A stretch of 64,000 bases of DNA from contig NZ_CP017014.1 in NCBI RefSeq assembly GCF_001767395.1, positions 3,108,501 to 3,172,500 on the forward strand, in the 5' to 3' direction. This document shows, piece by piece, positions 34,168 to 38,993 of the stretch. Source of the stretch: Rhodococcus sp. WMMA185 (GTDB lineage: Bacteria; Actinomycetota; Actinomycetes; Mycobacteriales; Mycobacteriaceae). The notes under the pieces are model-generated. The model did not search any database and had not been told where the DNA came from. It was given only the letters and a program-made list of their open reading frames with translations. Each line of letters begins with the position of its first letter. The stretch's first letter is position 1. Both the position numbers and the translations under genes were made by a program.

Positions 34168-34244
34168 TGGTGGCCAGGGCCGGGATCGAACCGGCGACCT
34201 TCCGCTTTTCAGGCGGACGCTCGTACCAACTGAGCTACCTGGCC
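34168..34244 (-). tRNA. tRNA-Phe (GAA)
   Basis: Leftward cloverleaf: acceptor GGCCAGG/CCTGGCC, anticodon stem-loop CCGCC-TGAAAAG-CGG with GAA anticodon, T arm GCCGGTTCGATCCCGGC, encoded 3' CCA. Confidence 0.95.
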
Positions 34245-34310
34245 GGACGGCACCCGAACCGAATGCCAATCGCAATGTGCCGCCAGCAACGAATGCTGGC
34301 ACCACTCTTG

Positions 34311-34384
34311 CGACCCTGACGGGACTCGAACCCGCGACCTCCGCCGTGACAGGGCGGCGCGCTAACCAACTGCGCCACAGGGCC
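34311..34384 (-). tRNA. tRNA-Asp (GTC)
   Basis: Leftward cloverleaf: acceptor GGCCCTG/CAGGGTC, anticodon loop CTGTCAC (GTC), T arm with GGTTCGAGTCC; CCA not encoded. Confidence 0.95.
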
Positions 34385-34485
34385 TTGCTTTTCCTGCTGT
34401 GCTTCACAACGAAAGCTGTAAAGCGATCCTACTTGTCACATTTGCTGCTGCCGAACCATACCGCATGCTCGACACCGGTCAAACG

Positions 34486-34558
34486 TACCCCCTACGGGAT
34501 TCGAACCCGCGCTACCGCCTTGAAAGGGCGGCGTCCTAGGCCGCTAGACGAAGGGGGC
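34486..34558 (-). tRNA. tRNA-Glu (TTC)
   Basis: Leftward cloverleaf: acceptor GCCCCCT/AGGGGGT, anticodon loop CTTTCAA (TTC), T arm GCGGGTTCGAATCCCGT; CCA not encoded. The 1-72 pair is a G-U wobble. Confidence 0.93.
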
Positions 34559-34656
34559 CCGTCGGATTTCTCCGAACCAGTACCTCAACGGCGTTCCGTT
34601 GGGAGCTTGGATAGCTTAGGACACGAAGGGAGAAATCCCCAAATCGGCAGGTCAGG

Positions 34657-35313
34657 CTATAAATCGGGCAGTTCCGAGCCGCAATCCGGCCATCCTTGCT
34701 CCGCAAACTTCTCGAGCCATTCTTGCGACGCCATCGCAGCGAGAACCACCTCGAGCGATTCCTCGAAGCGCGTATCGAGGTCGCCTTCTAGCGCCAGCAT
34801 GTCCGACATGTATCTCTGGCCGGCGATGGACGCCGCGAGCACGCGGGTGAATTTCTCGGGGTCGGCGCCCGCGCGCAACAATCCCTCACCCTCGGCGCGG
34901 CATGCGAACTCACGCGCCGTGCGACCCCATACCTGCGCGCCACCGGCGAGTACGTCGGAATAGAACTCGGGTTCTACGATCAACCGAAACTCGGCCCGGA
35001 CAATCACAGACGAGTGGAACAACCTCGCCAGATCGACTACCAGGCCGTGGAGCGCCTCGAAAGGCCCGACATCCGTGCGATGTTTCCAACGATCAGTCAG
35101 AGCGACGAACTGTTCGACACCGGCCTGGAGGACGGCGCGAGCCAGGTCTTCCTTGGACTGGAAGTGGAAGTACATAGCCCCCTTGGTGGCGTTCGAGCCC
35201 TCCAAGATCGTGTTGACCGACGCGGCCGCATACCCGCGCTTCGCGAACTCGATCGCAGCTGACTCCACCAGCGCTGCGCGGGTGCGACGCGCACGCTCCT
35301 GTTGACGTGCCAT
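34657..35313 (-). CDS. TetR-family regulator of the gamma-butyrolactone-receptor (ArpA/ScbR/GblR) type
   Basis: 218 residues. The DNA-binding part RTRAALVESAAIEFAKRGYAAASVNTILEGSNATKGAMYFHFQSKEDLARAVLQ is the typical signature of gamma-butyrolactone autoregulator receptors. A conserved tryptophan for ligand contact may lie in GAQVWGRTAREFACRAEGEG. ATG 35313 is supported by GAAGGA upstream. Such receptors repress secondary-metabolite or conjugation genes and usually their own gene, and release DNA on binding a butyrolactone signal. Rhodococcus jostii is known to use such signals. No gblA/afsA-type synthase is in this window. The AT-rich upstream region holds operator-like sequences. Confidence 0.82.
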   Translation of the reverse strand: MARQQERARRTRAALVESAAIEFAKRGYAAASVNTILEGSNATKGAMYFHFQSKEDLARAVLQAGVEQFVALTDRWKHRTDVGPFEALHGLVVDLARLFHSSVIVRAEFRLIVEPEFYSDVLAGGAQVWGRTAREFACRAEGEGLLRAGADPEKFTRVLAASIAGQRYMSDMLALEGDLDTRFEESLEVVLAAMASQEWLEKFAEQGWPDCGSELPDL

Positions 35314-35379
35314 GGCAGTGAATCCTTCTTCCAGGTGTGACACTCCCTGCCATCGCCCACCCGGGACGAGACCGGTGCC

Positions 35380-35470
35380 ATCGCATAACAGTATCCCTGT
35401 TTTGAAAAAACCAACAAACCAGTCTTCAAGTCTTGTATTCGATCACAAAACAGACTTGGAAAACATGAGG
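35380..35470. promoter_or_regulatory. AT-rich operator-like region upstream of the butyrolactone-receptor-type gene
   Basis: A markedly AT-rich segment holds several related motifs: CCTGTTTTGAAAAAAC, ACAAACCAGTCTTCAAGTC, and CAAAACAGACTTGG. CAAGTCT (35427-35433) and AGACTTG (35452-35458) form an inverted repeat. These resemble autoregulatory elements bound by ScbR-type receptors; this is inferred from position and sequence style only. Confidence 0.45.
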
Positions 35471-35517
35471 CGGTTGAACATGCCGTGGGTTTGACCGCCA
35501 TCAAAAACACACCGGAT

Positions 35518-35569
35518 GGTATAGTTTTGCTCGGCTCGGGTGCACTGCAGGGGGTGCGCACCCGAGCCG
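35518..35569 (+). other. Orphan promoter-hairpin element
   Basis: An extended -10 (TGGTATAGT) is followed six bases after by a perfect 12-base hairpin, CGGCTCGGGTGC (35532-35543) and GCACCCGAGCCG (35558-35569), with no gene in between. The tRNA-Lys gene 83 bases downstream has its own -10 (TAGACT, 35636-35641). It could be a short non-coding RNA, a butyrolactone-receptor-region transcript with early termination, or a simple terminator. Confidence 0.4.
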
Positions 35570-35651
35570 ACTTCTATATCCCTCGGCTCAACACGCCGTG
35601 TGGGGGTGCGGTGCCGACCGTCGCCGTCGGCAGTTTAGACTCTGACCCCGC

Positions 35652-35727
35652 GCCCCTATAGCTCAGTTGGTAGAGCTACGGACTTTTAATCCGCAGGTCG
35701 TAGGTTCGAGTCCTACTGGGGGCACCA
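35652..35727 (+). tRNA. tRNA-Lys (TTT)
   Basis: Cloverleaf with acceptor GCCCCTA/TGGGGGC, D arm GCTCAGTTGGTAGAGC, anticodon loop CTTTTAA (TTT), T arm GTAGGTTCGAGTCCTAC and encoded CCA. TAGACT 10 bases upstream is a likely -10 box. Confidence 0.97.
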
Positions 35728-35850
35728 CACCTAGGCTGCGCTGCAACATTGCCTGGTTCAGACGGAAGTAGATCACACGAGACCTTCACCGGCACCCCGG
35801 AACAGAACAACCTTGCCGACCCGATCACGGTTCCGACGAAAACGAAACGA

Positions 35851-35887
35851 CCGTCGCAACATTCCCACATCGAGAGTGTTGCGACGG
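35851..35887 (-). terminator. Terminator hairpin of the pentapeptide-repeat gene
   Basis: 11-base arms CCGTCGCAACA and TGTTGCGACGG, 42 bases after the stop codon in the leftward direction. The hairpin and its flanks are homologous to the terminator at 38881-38934 behind the divergent partner gene. Confidence 0.8.
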
Positions 35888-35929
35888 CCGCATTAGTCCG
35901 CCGTAGGCGGGGCCTTCGGCGTTGCCGGG

Positions 35930-37174
35930 TCAGCCAGTGACTCCGGTGAGGCCGGCGAGCGCCAGTCCGCCCGCGACGAGGCCGCCGACTACAAGGCCCC
36001 CGACGACCAGGCTGCCGGTGTCGATGTCCGAGCTGCCGTTGCCGCCTTCGCCGTCGTCGACGTCAAGAGTCATCTCCAAGGTGTCTTCCCCCGCGATGTT
36101 GGTAGCGGTAATGGTGATCGGAAATGATCCTGCTTCCGTAGGTGTCCCGGAGAGGACGCCTTCTTCAGACAGAGTCAGCCCCGCCGGTAGTTCGCTCGTG
36201 GTGGTGACGGTCGGAGTCGGGAATCCCCCGGTCTCGAACCAGACGAAGAAGCTGTCCCCGACCGTCGCGGAGTAATGGTCCCCGTCCGAGCCATCCTCGG
36301 GGGCCCCAATCCATGGGAAAGACGGATGCCGCACAGTAACTGTGAACGTGCCCACTCCCTGACCCGCGCTGGTGCTGACGGTGCAACGCACCGTTGTAGT
36401 CCCCATCGGAAAGCTGCTGCCCGATGCACGATCACAGTTTTCGAAGGTGGTTCCGGTCAGGCTCGGAGGCGTGGGCCAGGTGACCGTTGCGTTACCGGAC
36501 TCCCCCACCGCCACAGTCGTGTCGGAAGGAATCAGCACCGTGCCAGTCAGGTCCGCATGGTCCAGATCGGCCCCGGTCAGGTTTATCCCACTGAGCTCGG
36601 CACCGGCCAGTTCCATGTTGCTCAGGTCCGCGTCGGTCAAGTTGGCGTCGGTGAAATTCGCCCTTGCTTCGCCATTGATAATGTTCTTGCGCAGGTATGC
36701 GTAAGTCAGGTTGGCGCCGGTCAGGTTGGCGTTGTTGAAGTTCGCATCGAATATTCTCGCAAACTTCAAGCTGGCGCCGGTCAGGTCGGCGCCAGCCAGA
36801 TCCGAACTGAGTAGTCTTGCGAAATCCATTTCCGCGTCGGTCAGGTTCGCGCCGATGAACTTAGTGCGGCTGAGGTCCGCATCCTCCAGGGTCGCGCCAC
36901 TGAGGTCTGCATACGAAAAGTCGAGGCCTTTCAGATCTGAGCCGGTGAGGTCCACCCCGGGGCAGACGGTGTGATTCTCGGGATTGGGGTTGTCAACGAT
37001 GGTGCAGTCACCGATGACGATCTCAGCGTTGGCGACCGGGGTCACAGTCACCATGGCGGCTGTCGCCAGTCCCACGCTGAGAGCCGCCGCTCCACCCCTG
37101 CGCGCCCATGTGCGTCGCGAGTAATAAGCGACGTCGGAGCCCGTGCTAGGGGAAGTTCGTCTCAGCAGCGTCAT
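35930..37174 (-). CDS. Secreted pentapeptide-repeat protein with HYR/Ig-like domains and a glycine-zipper C-terminal tail
   Basis: 414 residues from ATG 37174, supported by GGGAGGATGG upstream. An N-terminal signal peptide (GGAAALSVGLATAAMVTVTP then VANAEI) is followed by ~30 pentapeptide repeats of the A(D/N)LxX type (VDLTGSDLKGLDFSYADLSG to LDHADLTGTVL), a right-handed beta-helix of about 160 residues. Then comes a HYR-like domain (TTVAVGESGNATVTWPTPPS, FPMGTTTVRCTVS) and an Ig-like putative cadherin/He_PIG domain (LPAGLTLSEEGVLSGTPTEA). It ends in VVGGLVVGGLVAGGLALAGL then TGVTG, a Gly-zipper helix with no cytoplasmic tail. Secreted pentapeptide proteins are uncommon; function unknown. The divergent gene at 37952 shares the tail and 3' UTR. 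Confidence 0.78.
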   Translation of the reverse strand: MTLLRRTSPSTGSDVAYYSRRTWARRGGAAALSVGLATAAMVTVTPVANAEIVIGDCTIVDNPNPENHTVCPGVDLTGSDLKGLDFSYADLSGATLEDADLSRTKFIGANLTDAEMDFARLLSSDLAGADLTGASLKFARIFDANFNNANLTGANLTYAYLRKNIINGEARANFTDANLTDADLSNMELAGAELSGINLTGADLDHADLTGTVLIPSDTTVAVGESGNATVTWPTPPSLTGTTFENCDRASGSSFPMGTTTVRCTVSTSAGQGVGTFTVTVRHPSFPWIGAPEDGSDGDHYSATVGDSFFVWFETGGFPTPTVTTTSELPAGLTLSEEGVLSGTPTEAGSFPITITATNIAGEDTLEMTLDVDDGEGGNGSSDIDTGSLVVGGLVVGGLVAGGLALAGLTGVTG

Positions 37175-37951
37175 TCGGTTCCATCCTCCCGTGGAGACGC
37201 GGCCGCTCGCGTCGTCATTGATGGGGTCGCCGACTAGAACTGCATCCGCCCCCGTGATTTCGAAACACCGGTGATTGTGCATGACGCGTATGACACACCA
37301 TCCACCGGGCAGATGTTCCAGACGAAGTTTCGCAGTACGCACGCCTTCGACCCACTTCGAGCGTGCCCCGGGTCGCCTGCCGTAGCGAACGGATGCGCAC
37401 GTATCACGTTGCTACGGAAAGGTTCTACTCGAGAAGGCCGAACCCGCATCGGCTATCGAGACTCCCACGCAGACAAGACCAGCCACGAGACCCACGAGGT
37501 ATCGCTCGCGTCGAAAGTGGAAACCGTTGTCGGACAGAACCATATCGCTCAACCGCCTCGACCGGTAAGACCTGTTTTGCGAGTTCACTGAATCCCAACA
37601 GCCAAGAACCGTCGACGCGACGATCTGTTGGTCGCAGCGGCGCCGAGGTTCCAGCACGGCGTTCGGCCTACCCACCGCCCTCGTCGCCACGCTGTGATGC
37701 GTCTCACATTTTCTCTTATTTGTCCAGTGCAGCAATACTTTTGACCACGGCTCAACTATTCCCATGAGGTCAACAAGTGGGTTGGTCCGCCCATCCGATC
37801 TGAGAGTCCGTGTTAACTTCAAGCCGCACAGCAGGTACGAAAGCGACCTGTTCGGGGGGATTCCGATCGGGCTCTGTGGCCAACTATCAGCCAGCCAGCT
37901 GCGCATACCCGCATGCGTTCGTGTGCGGGCCGTTTGACCGAAGGAGTACCT
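37175..37951. other. 777-base region between the two divergent secreted-protein genes; no gene supported
   Basis: Several open frames cross it but none has a ribosome site together with natural codon use. It must hold the two divergent promoters. The middle (about 37705-37745) is AT-rich. No repeat, RNA gene or family-specific operator was recognised. Confidence 0.5.
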
Positions 37952-38842
37952 ATGAAGACGTCCGTTCGCACTGCAGCGATTGGACTGCTTGCGGCCCCTA
38001 TCGCCGCTGCCTCGTTCGCAGCACCGGCCCAGGCGACCGAGCATGAGGATCTCGTCGCCCTCTCCGCCACAGTCGCCGGCAACGAACTCACCGTCAGTAT
38101 CGACAACAGCACCGAGAGCACCCTGGGCTGCGATATCTGGTACGCGCCCGATGCCGCCGACGCGAGTACGACGCGCATCGTGCGTGGGACTTCAGTCGAA
38201 CCTGACGCCCCCCTCGAGCCCGCCCCGGTTACTATCAACGAACCCGGCGACTATGTTGTCGGCTGGACCTGCTGGTCAGCCGAGGACTGGGAGCGGTGGG
38301 GAACGATCGAAGTTTCGGGTGTGGAGCCGACGGCTCAGCCGTTCCCCTTCACCATCGAGGACGCAGCCCCGGGAGACCTGACCCTCGATGTCTCGACGAA
38401 CGTGGAGATCGAAGACGGCGCCGACGTAGCGCCCGTCACCGCTACGTTCGTCAGCACCCTCACCAAGGACCCCTCCGCAACGTGCGGTTTGAAGGTGACG
38501 GACGCTGACGATGCGGACCAGGTCGTTTTCGAGAAGGCCAATAAGTACGTCCAGAAGAAGAAGACCAAGGGCGTCGACTTCGAGCTCGCGGCTGGAACCT
38601 ACACCGTGACCTGGGACTGCTTCTGGAACCGTTCGGACGGCAAGCAGTTCAAGTGGGGAACGGACGAAGGTGCCGCGCCGGTTACGATCACCGTCGCGGA
38701 GGCACCCGCTGACAATCTCTTCGGCAGCCTGACCGGCGAAAACGGCGAGGGCCTCAACCCCTGGGCCGTCGGCGGTCTGGTCGTCGGCGGTCTGGTTGCG
38801 GGCGGCCTGGCCATCGCAGGCCTCGCAGGCCTCGCTCCCTGA
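37952..38842 (+). CDS. Secreted two-repeat Cys-containing protein with a glycine-zipper C-terminal tail
   Basis: 296 residues from ATG 37952 with GAAGGAG upstream. Signal peptide MKTSVRTAAIGLLAAPIAAA then SFAAPAQA. Two similar ~100-residue beta-rich repeats each hold a cysteine pair: LGCDIWYAP...YVVGWTCWSAEDWERWG and ATCGLKVTD...YTVTWDCFWNRSDGKQFKWG. A short linker is followed by WAVGGLVVGGLVAGGLAIAG then LAGLAP, nearly identical to the tail of the divergent pentapeptide protein. The tail looks like a membrane or outer-membrane anchor or an oligomerising helix; there is no LPXTG motif or positive tail. I do not recognise the repeats. It shares a homologous terminator region with the partner. 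Confidence 0.8.
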   Translation: MKTSVRTAAIGLLAAPIAAASFAAPAQATEHEDLVALSATVAGNELTVSIDNSTESTLGCDIWYAPDAADASTTRIVRGTSVEPDAPLEPAPVTINEPGDYVVGWTCWSAEDWERWGTIEVSGVEPTAQPFPFTIEDAAPGDLTLDVSTNVEIEDGADVAPVTATFVSTLTKDPSATCGLKVTDADDADQVVFEKANKYVQKKKTKGVDFELAAGTYTVTWDCFWNRSDGKQFKWGTDEGAAPVTITVAEAPADNLFGSLTGENGEGLNPWAVGGLVVGGLVAGGLAIAGLAGLAP

Positions 38843-38880
38843 TTCAGTAGCACCGAAGGCCCCGCCTGAGGCGAAATTCG

Positions 38881-38934
38881 CACGGCCGCCGCAACACTCC
38901 CGATGTGGGAATGTTGCGGCGGCCGTGCCGTTTT
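38881..38934 (+). terminator. Terminator hairpin of the two-repeat secreted protein gene
   Basis: Perfect 16-base arms CACGGCCGCCGCAACA and TGTTGCGGCGGCCGTG, loop around CGATGTGGG, then TTTT. Homologous to the hairpin at 35851-35887. Confidence 0.88.
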
Positions 38935-38993
38935 CGGGGGACCGAGTCCAACCGGGGATCGTTCGGCAGGGTTTGGTCGATTCCGGGGCGGGA

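Follow-up and report, generated by a model that had tools for sequence, protein, structure and literature searches.

In a 64,000-nucleotide stretch of Rhodococcus sp. WMMA185 (contig NZ_CP017014.1, positions 3,108,501 to 3,172,500; the window in what follows), two divergent genes encode P0001, a pentapeptide-repeat protein, and P0002, a member of a secreted immunoglobulin-like (Ig-like) family, and both proteins end in nearly the same hydrophobic tail. This tail appears to be a minor variant within a wider class of short C-terminal tails, mostly of the type TGSLGSxFGS directly followed by the stop codon (TGSLGSxFGS-stop). On balance we favour the explanation that the end of the pair is the hydrophobic form of a swappable tail class, that the tail most likely serves as an envelope anchor and that P0001 took over the 3' end of an Ig-family gene.

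The genes and their shared 3' ends are arranged in the window as follows.

35930..37174, minus strand: P0001 gene, 414 amino acids
37952..38842, plus strand: P0002 gene, 296 amino acids
35948..36004, minus strand: hydrophobic glycine-zipper tail core of P0001, VGGLVVGGLVAGGLALAGL
38768..38824, plus strand: hydrophobic glycine-zipper tail core of P0002, VGGLVVGGLVAGGLAIAGL
35906..35916, minus strand: AAGGCCCCGCC motif 3' of the P0001 stop, which occurs after part of the Ig-family genes
38856..38866, plus strand: AAGGCCCCGCC motif 3' of the P0002 stop, likewise occurring after part of the Ig-family genes
35848..35890, minus strand: 3' hairpin of P0001, a probable terminator
38882..38927, plus strand: 3' hairpin of P0002, a probable terminator
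35832..36008, no strand: left inverted repeat, tail plus hairpin
38764..38941, no strand: right inverted repeat, tail plus hairpin

Genes, strands and ends agreed with the divergent pair described in an earlier note on this DNA, and the nearly identical C-termini and shared bases past the stops that it reported were confirmed as well. The tail cores VGGLVVGGLVAGGLALAGL and VGGLVVGGLVAGGLAIAGL agree at 18 of 19 residues, with different codons at 10 of the 18 identical positions. The maximum Kyte-Doolittle hydropathy over 19 residues (KD19) is 2.26 for the tail of P0001 and 2.15 for that of P0002, and the last 29 and 30 residues, respectively, are uncharged. Behind both stops lies an identical stretch of 15 bases (CCGAAGGCCCCGCCT), followed by a 59-nucleotide (nt) hairpin region at 86% identity. 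The divergent pair is bracketed by inverted repeats made up of tail and hairpin, 110 nt long at 75% and 59 nt long at 86%. With the right copy as query the left copy was found in the 4.44-Mb genome at an expect value (E) of 1.3e-30; the sole additional row was the hairpin matched to its own opposite arm, leaving only two places in the genome, and the hairpin core was restricted to these two places among 28 genomes of the genus (up to 3 mismatches). The 3' regions folded much better than shuffled sequences (z -6.7 and -5.5), and by inspection the main-stem differences between the two hairpins preserve pairing. A mechanical scan found no canonical intrinsic terminator at the hairpins, where only four T follow the stem. 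Of the duplicated terminator proposed earlier, the duplicated, folding hairpin was recovered and the canonical terminator was not; from their sequence the hairpins are predicted to act as terminators.

The wider tail class was traced with a profile built from seven TGSLGSxFGS ends, with no stop codon inside the profile, in genomes taken one per species and with genes called from open frames. At E<=1 the profile matched 21 of the 28 genomes of the genus, densely in G015, G021 and G023 (20, 22 and 24 matches, respectively); G008-G011 are among the 7 genomes that gave no match at this threshold. Thirty loci were returned, some of them mutually orthologous; the match lay within 3 codons of the stop in 17 of the 21 loci with E<=0.1 and in 1 of the 9 loci above this value (2 unreadable). 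At E<=0.1, 12 of the 28 genus genomes had a match, compared with 1 of 29 others in a class-wide sample. In Rhodococcus, bodies as different as pentapeptide repeats, beta-propellers and Big_3_5 Ig repeats, among others, end in this same C-terminal tail. Clustering of 108 candidate tail-bearing frames after removal of the tail yielded a pentapeptide/beta-propeller cluster (33 frames), the Ig-like family (32), Big_3_5 Ig repeats (24), three pairs, one of which has a WxLIP-like body, and 13 singles, some of them false or truncated. The pentapeptide and beta-propeller frames presumably join via shared Ig-like linkers. The same C-terminal sequence is therefore present on unrelated bodies whose export, in this survey, is judged by heuristic only; for the tail proteins as a whole, export is predicted from signal peptides recognised by heuristic and by eye. 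Five tail queries, one of them with an inexact sequence, gave 0 NCBIfam families at E<=10, and Pfam and NCBIfam searches with ten tail-bearing proteins named the bodies and returned no tail model at E<=0.01. No description of these tails was found in the open literature, subscription journals and preprints being outside the coverage.

Related proteins with a GSLGS...FGS tail were seen at L191:2090-3037 and L224:828-1805, and L191 gave a sub-threshold match to the WxL-interacting-protein peptidoglycan-binding domain. At L202 in the WMMA185 genome (21000-25000), four successive stop-to-stop frames in the same direction each carry an xxFGS-type tail; the one frame tested consists of Big_3_5 Ig repeats.

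The terminal residue was then counted by body, in proteins of the fetched stretches, not all family matches. Redundant members were removed (63 to 50 for the Ig type, 23 to 21 for the pentapeptide type), and Ig matches through the signal peptide only were also dropped. The baseline comprised 289 genes predicted in the window and in 14 evenly spaced 20-kb stretches of the genome. Serine was the last residue in 33 of the 50 Ig-type proteins and in 14 of the 21 of pentapeptide type, compared with 27 of 289 baseline genes (Fisher p 2.5e-17 and 3.4e-9, respectively, values overstated by the kinship among family members). The pentapeptide-type protein L188 had entered through the tail search, as had some hydrophobic-tail loci in the Ig set; without L188 the pentapeptide count was 13 of 20 (p 1.7e-8). 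An FGS-type tail was carried by 2 of the 289 baseline genes, two adjacent beta-propeller genes. None of the five tails with KD19>=2.0, a cut picked after the data had been seen, ended in serine, compared with 47 of the 66 others (p 0.003). A separate count of tail frames was not used as evidence, because its selection demanded a terminal serine. The frames L237, L142 at 1397, L109 at 2654 and L128 were judged not to be genuine tails and were dropped.

P0001 consists of a signal peptide (about residues 1-50, by inspection), a pentapeptide-repeat region, a HYR/Ig-like region and the hydrophobic tail. It matched Pfam PF00805 at E 8.9e-31 with 105.5 bits against a gathering score of 20.2 and belongs to this family; its HYR match falls under the cut-off, and against the NCBIfam models for Qnr, MfpA and similar proteins it scored far under the cut-offs. 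The nearest relatives by body are an orthologue from R. marinonascens (62% identity) and a 755-residue paralogue in the WMMA185 genome. Both share the body of P0001 up to the same point and then end, directly before the stop codon, in TGSLGSGSLRSGSLGSGSVEGVSGS and DTGSLDTGSLGTGSLGTESLESLSGS, respectively, which are tails of the Gly-Ser-Leu (GSL) type, whereas P0001 continues with DTGSLVVGGLVVGG...; P0001 retains the TGSL entry and the remainder of its tail is replaced. The 3' sequences of the two relatives are also unlike that of P0001. Among the 21 pentapeptide-type genes, P0001 alone has AAGGYYYCG within 45 nt past the stop, a motif found there in 9 of the 50 Ig-type genes, and of the three occurrences of the exact 11-mer AAGGCCCCGCC in 344 kb of sampled sequence, two lie at this locus.

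A search of plasmids with P0001 gave 38 records, 3 of them from Rhodococcus, of which the two listed were read out. Both of these matches came via the body, since the P0001 query itself has no FGS tail. The R. erythropolis protein WP_046380215.1 terminates in TGSLGSPFGS-stop and the R. opacus protein WP_183102315.1 in GEGSSLFGS-stop, and the gene of the latter sits between transposases. Matches on Bifidobacterium and Actinomadura plasmids were judged from annotation only. The pentapeptide-type loci L127, L129 and L131 of genus g22 have another recurring C-terminal unit, PLIGSAVTGSTNISG or similar, twice in each; this unit is perhaps a lineage-specific equivalent of the tail.

P0002 was found to comprise a signal peptide (about residues 1-28, by inspection), an Ig-like domain 1 (about 31-140), a domain 2 and the hydrophobic tail. 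Of the two-repeat architecture attributed to it before, the two domains hold, the second being a weaker repeat than the first. In its own genome, P0002 as query retrieved itself and 13 further rows at E<=1; a P0002-like signal peptide at the start or an Ig-like domain with C..WxC..WGT is present in 10 of these 13, and the remaining rows were the P0001 tail and two weak ones. The common signal peptide and the Cys/Trp pattern place P0002 in a secreted Ig-like family. A profile of the Ig domain found 10 places in the WMMA185 genome, P0002 included, and at E<=1e-6 it detected the family in 57 of the 401 genomes of a family-level sample, spread over 11 of its 31 genera. In the AlphaFold model domain 1 is all-beta, with the ten-residue blocks of 31-140 at a predicted local distance difference test score (pLDDT) of 81-96, and domain 2 is less sure. 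Sequence search of solved structures with the family profile gave nothing convincing (best E 0.036). Domain 2 reached 27.2 bits against Pfam CopC (cut-off 23.3), but 13.8 against the NCBIfam CopC cut-off of 95. No plasmid match was obtained with P0002.

Read to the stop, the tails of the Ig family are diverse, with GSL repeats followed by FGS, GSS or GFS and, in some genomes, CFGSxC. They vary while the Ig-like body stays constant, and are mostly Gly-Ser-Leu-rich with a terminal serine. The Ig-family proteins L050, L058, L063, L065 and L067 end in CFGSxCLPPG, CIFGSACI or CTGSACLP, two cysteines flanking the GS core. Hydrophobic tails resembling those of the window pair are carried by Ig-family members in R. 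spongiicola (L102) and R. xishaensis (L103), where runs of consecutive secreted genes have GSL repeats and hydrophobic tails. Many of the cluster genes in L102 and L103 are followed by a GAAGGCCCCGCC...GGCGGGGCCTTCGG hairpin.

Among the 28 genus genomes, the hydrophobic tail was restricted to P0001 and P0002. The 10 further weak rows (E<=0.1) were all read and none was a C-terminal tail of this type; they were inner-membrane helices followed by charged or further sequence, apparently non-coding frames, or internal repeats. In a search that matched six genomes, the frames hit in three of them (G256, G291 and G301) did not, in our judgement, encode exported proteins carrying a tail of this type. 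A search with matches in 29 of 401 genomes was read out only in G000, G127 and G139 and at the loci already known. The tail search suggested in the earlier note turned out positive: the R. xishaensis and R. spongiicola tails behind an Ig-like domain rule out a tail unique to the pair. That note had taken the pair itself as the system. The shared tail is real, and its context is wider, the hydrophobic tail being apparently the minor form of the TGSLGSxFGS-stop class.

Because the orthologue and the paralogue of P0001 carry GSL tails and an Ig-family motif follows the P0001 stop, the 3' end of P0001 was probably exchanged for that of an Ig-family gene, and the donor was perhaps the neighbour P0002. 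When the 19-codon core is compared without gaps, P0001 has its closest match in P0002 (46 of 57 bases; 41 of 57 to R. xishaensis and 39 of 57 to R. spongiicola). Over 31 codons including the linker it is nearest to R. xishaensis (67 of 87, versus 62 of 93 to P0002); this had suggested R. xishaensis as closer to the P0001 tail than P0002, a conclusion abandoned because the gap-free comparison reversed it. The different codons at 10 of 18 identical residues indicate that the exchange or copy was not recent. The 86% alike hairpin may have been copied together with the tail and kept by pairing, or may have been exchanged separately. A single event, by gene conversion or a transposed cassette, that copied tail and terminator between the two neighbours would concern the origin only and is compatible with the functional explanation. 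It would account for the inverted repeats flanking the pair, for a hairpin core found at this locus only in 28 genomes and for 19-codon cores that are mutually nearest (46 of 57, compared with 39-44 of 57 to R. xishaensis or R. spongiicola); the codon differences, which speak against a recent event, and the 31-codon comparison leave it doubtful. The anchor cassette of the earlier note is accordingly retained in part: the tail is modular, standing behind Ig-like bodies in other species, and the 3' end of P0001 has changed, the direct copying from neighbour to neighbour being the doubtful element.

According to the explanation we favour, Rhodococcus would attach a class of short C-terminal tails to many unrelated exported bodies. 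The common form is flexible and Gly/Ser/Leu-rich, often with a TGSL start and a serine end (TGSLGSxFGS-stop). The form in the window has a TGSL entry in P0001, followed by 20-25 uncharged residues with small-xxx-small spacing and no terminal serine. Most likely the tail would anchor the body in the envelope of the cell, probably in its mycomembrane; the hydrophobic form would insert itself, and the Gly/Ser form would act by modification or by a receptor at its serines. P0001, whose relatives have a GSL tail, would have acquired its 3' end, with tail and stop-proximal motif, from an Ig-family gene, perhaps from its neighbour P0002, and not recently. The two forms occupy equivalent positions on the same bodies, and neither has a basic end. 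The bodies and the recurring tails are seen directly in the sequence; anchoring, its site and the exchange of 3' ends are what we infer from these sequence comparisons.

The hydropathy of the pair (KD19 2.26 and 2.15) would suffice for a membrane span, and an ordinary C-terminal transmembrane anchor in the cytoplasmic membrane could explain it. This seems unlikely to us, since no basic residue follows the span, unlike in the tripartite sorting signals described in PMC3237569, and since the three GSL/FGS tails measured (KD19 0.18-0.86) are too polar to span a membrane, yet occupy the same place on P0001-type bodies. According to the same text, LPXTG, PEP-CTERM and GlyGly-CTERM signals consist of a motif, a transmembrane helix and a basic cluster. 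No LPXTG-like motif was found in P0001 or P0002, whose last 29-30 residues are uncharged, in line with the earlier view that this is no sortase signal, and the tails did not match PEP-CTERM, GlyGly-CTERM or other C-terminal sorting models of NCBIfam. The small-xxx-small spacing and the adjacency of two genes with the same tail had also suggested a pore-forming or oligomerisation glycine-zipper helix, the pair being a two-component channel. Nothing was found in support of a pore, and a pore segment should not swap as this tail does, standing behind unrelated bodies and being replaced by a polar Gly/Ser tail in relatives with the same body, which makes this reading highly improbable. That the tail is a low-complexity end of little function, drifting and spreading by recombination, would fit the large differences in length and repeat number among GSL tails; we regard it as quite improbable, because 47 of the 71 by-body proteins end in serine while the neighbouring residues change, and because one tail type stands behind several unrelated bodies.

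A specific version of the favoured explanation would be O-mycoloylation, which we put forward tentatively, by analogy, and as possible though not probable. The serines of GSL/FGS tails would be esterified by a MytC/Cmt1-type mycoloyltransferase, fixing the protein in the mycomembrane, and the hydrophobic tails of the window pair would substitute protein for lipid. For Corynebacterium glutamicum, PMC11066868 describes sites that lack a strict consensus; they are mostly serines of flexible segments with a slight excess of Gly, Ala and Ser, and several frequently lie near one another. PMC5310785 reports modification of the 57-residue PorH at Ser56 and of ProtX at the penultimate serine. The tails described here are Gly/Ser-rich and Ser-terminated, in line with these published sites. 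These known near-terminal sites are penultimate, however, and the tail serine in Rhodococcus is usually the last residue. Terminal serine is absent from the five most hydrophobic tails, as substitution for a lipid would have it; against this, a lower hydropathy is partly a consequence of more serine, and intermediate tails retain the serine. The strict tail occurs in few genera, despite mycoloyltransferases being expected in mycolata in general. Taken further by the same analogy, TGSLGSxFGS-stop would be a mycomembrane sorting and lipidation code and the zipper tails its lipid-free equivalent, exchangeable by 3'-end recombination, which we consider rather unlikely.

Several observations weigh against the envelope-anchor explanation itself, in addition to the kinship and the choice of cut mentioned with the serine counts. 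The hydrophobic form is rare, with 2 proteins in the WMMA185 genome, and in the AlphaFold model the P0002 tail has a pLDDT below 50, leaving a membrane helix unconfirmed. Tails of intermediate hydropathy retain the terminal serine, as seen for three in L107 (KD19 1.77-1.85) and for another three from the clusters of R. spongiicola and R. xishaensis (KD19 1.5-1.8), which indicates a gradual transition between the hydrophobic and the Gly/Ser forms. In the family sample, the strict FGS form reached E<=0.001 in 11 of the 401 genomes and in 4 of the 31 genera; it is thus mainly a Rhodococcus form and no general code of mycolata. Of the 21 profile loci with E<=0.1, 3 were not C-terminal by the test used (two end 4 codons before the stop) and 1 was unreadable. 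The signal-peptide heuristic is permissive, being passed by 86 of 289 baseline genes, and R. opacus WP_183102315.1, as annotated, begins inside the repeats without a signal peptide.

Two further features lie upstream of P0002.

37483..37951, plus strand: sequence upstream of P0002, at 71-74% identity to that preceding hydrophobic-tail genes of R. xishaensis and R. spongiicola
37693..37708, plus strand: palindrome TGTGATGCGTCTCACA, CRP/GlxR-like, with both half-sites retained in R. xishaensis and R. spongiicola

The identity over about 480 nt indicates that P0002 with its tail type is of that lineage. The perfect CRP/GlxR-like palindrome TGTGATGCGTCTCACA is the sole exact TGTGA-N6-TCACA in the window (0.04 expected). 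The P0002 leader can be aligned with 12 other leaders of the Ig/GSL family, including those of L041, L102, L103, L040, L012, L011, L009 and L115, and the blocks CAGCAGGTACGAAA...GACCTGTTCGGGGGGATTCCGATC are strongest in about half of them. In this 13-row alignment, two-sided changes in one or more sequences were seen at 6 of the 19 predicted pairs, chiefly in a small hairpin 5' of the ribosome-binding site and in one other helix. Rfam returned no family for the leader (one row, E 8.8, a chance level), the folds of three single leaders were not better than shuffles, and the leader was set aside as a riboswitch candidate. Four tRNA genes (Phe, Asp and Glu on the minus strand, Lys on the plus strand) lie just past the 3' end of P0001 (window 34168-35727).

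These tails may be how Rhodococcus holds proteins in its waxy envelope. As to how exported proteins are assigned to the mycomembrane, PMC5310785 and PMC11066868 report no strict consensus around the modified C. glutamicum serines. Some twenty exported proteins of several unrelated kinds share the tail in some Rhodococcus genomes, and a natural hydrophobic substitute occurs on the same bodies, which would bring this assignment within reach of tail swapping. Possible uses would be a predictor of surface proteins and a display tag for Rhodococcus. If the lipidation code were true, it would be, to our knowledge, the first targeting label for the outer membrane of bacteria with mycolic acids that is directly readable from sequence.

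Comparison with known systems concerns bodies as well as tails. P0001 resembles the pentapeptide-repeat proteins in clearing the cut-off of Pfam PF00805 and differs from them by its predicted signal peptide for export, its extra Ig-like regions and its C-terminal tail. The body kinds of choice-of-anchor beta-propeller (NCBIfam choice_anch_I) and Big_3_5 Ig-repeat surface proteins also carry the Rhodococcus tail, the beta-propeller bodies scoring under the choice_anch_I cut-off. In other bacteria, choice-of-anchor and Ig-repeat surface proteins are anchored by other C-terminal signals. Like GlyGly-CTERM/rhombosortase, LPXTG and PEP-CTERM, as presented in PMC3237569, the tails form a C-terminal homology region on unrelated proteins; GlyGly-CTERM reaches up to 13 per genome in that text and the Rhodococcus tail up to 24 profile matches at E<=1, and both have body families that use a different tail elsewhere. 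In contrast to these signals, the Rhodococcus tails have no basic end and no NCBIfam match, and the three common-form tails measured are too polar for a helix. From the C. glutamicum O-mycoloylome described in PMC5310785 and PMC11066868, the tail proteins differ in their bodies, in a recurrent C-terminal sequence in place of sites with no strict consensus, and in a modification that is here putative. With the O-mycoloylated PorA, PorH, ProtX, PorB and PorC described there, they share flexible, Gly/Ser-rich stretches with multiple serines and a mycolic-acid envelope, and two of the known sites (PMC5310785) adjoin the C-terminus, as the tail serines of Rhodococcus do.

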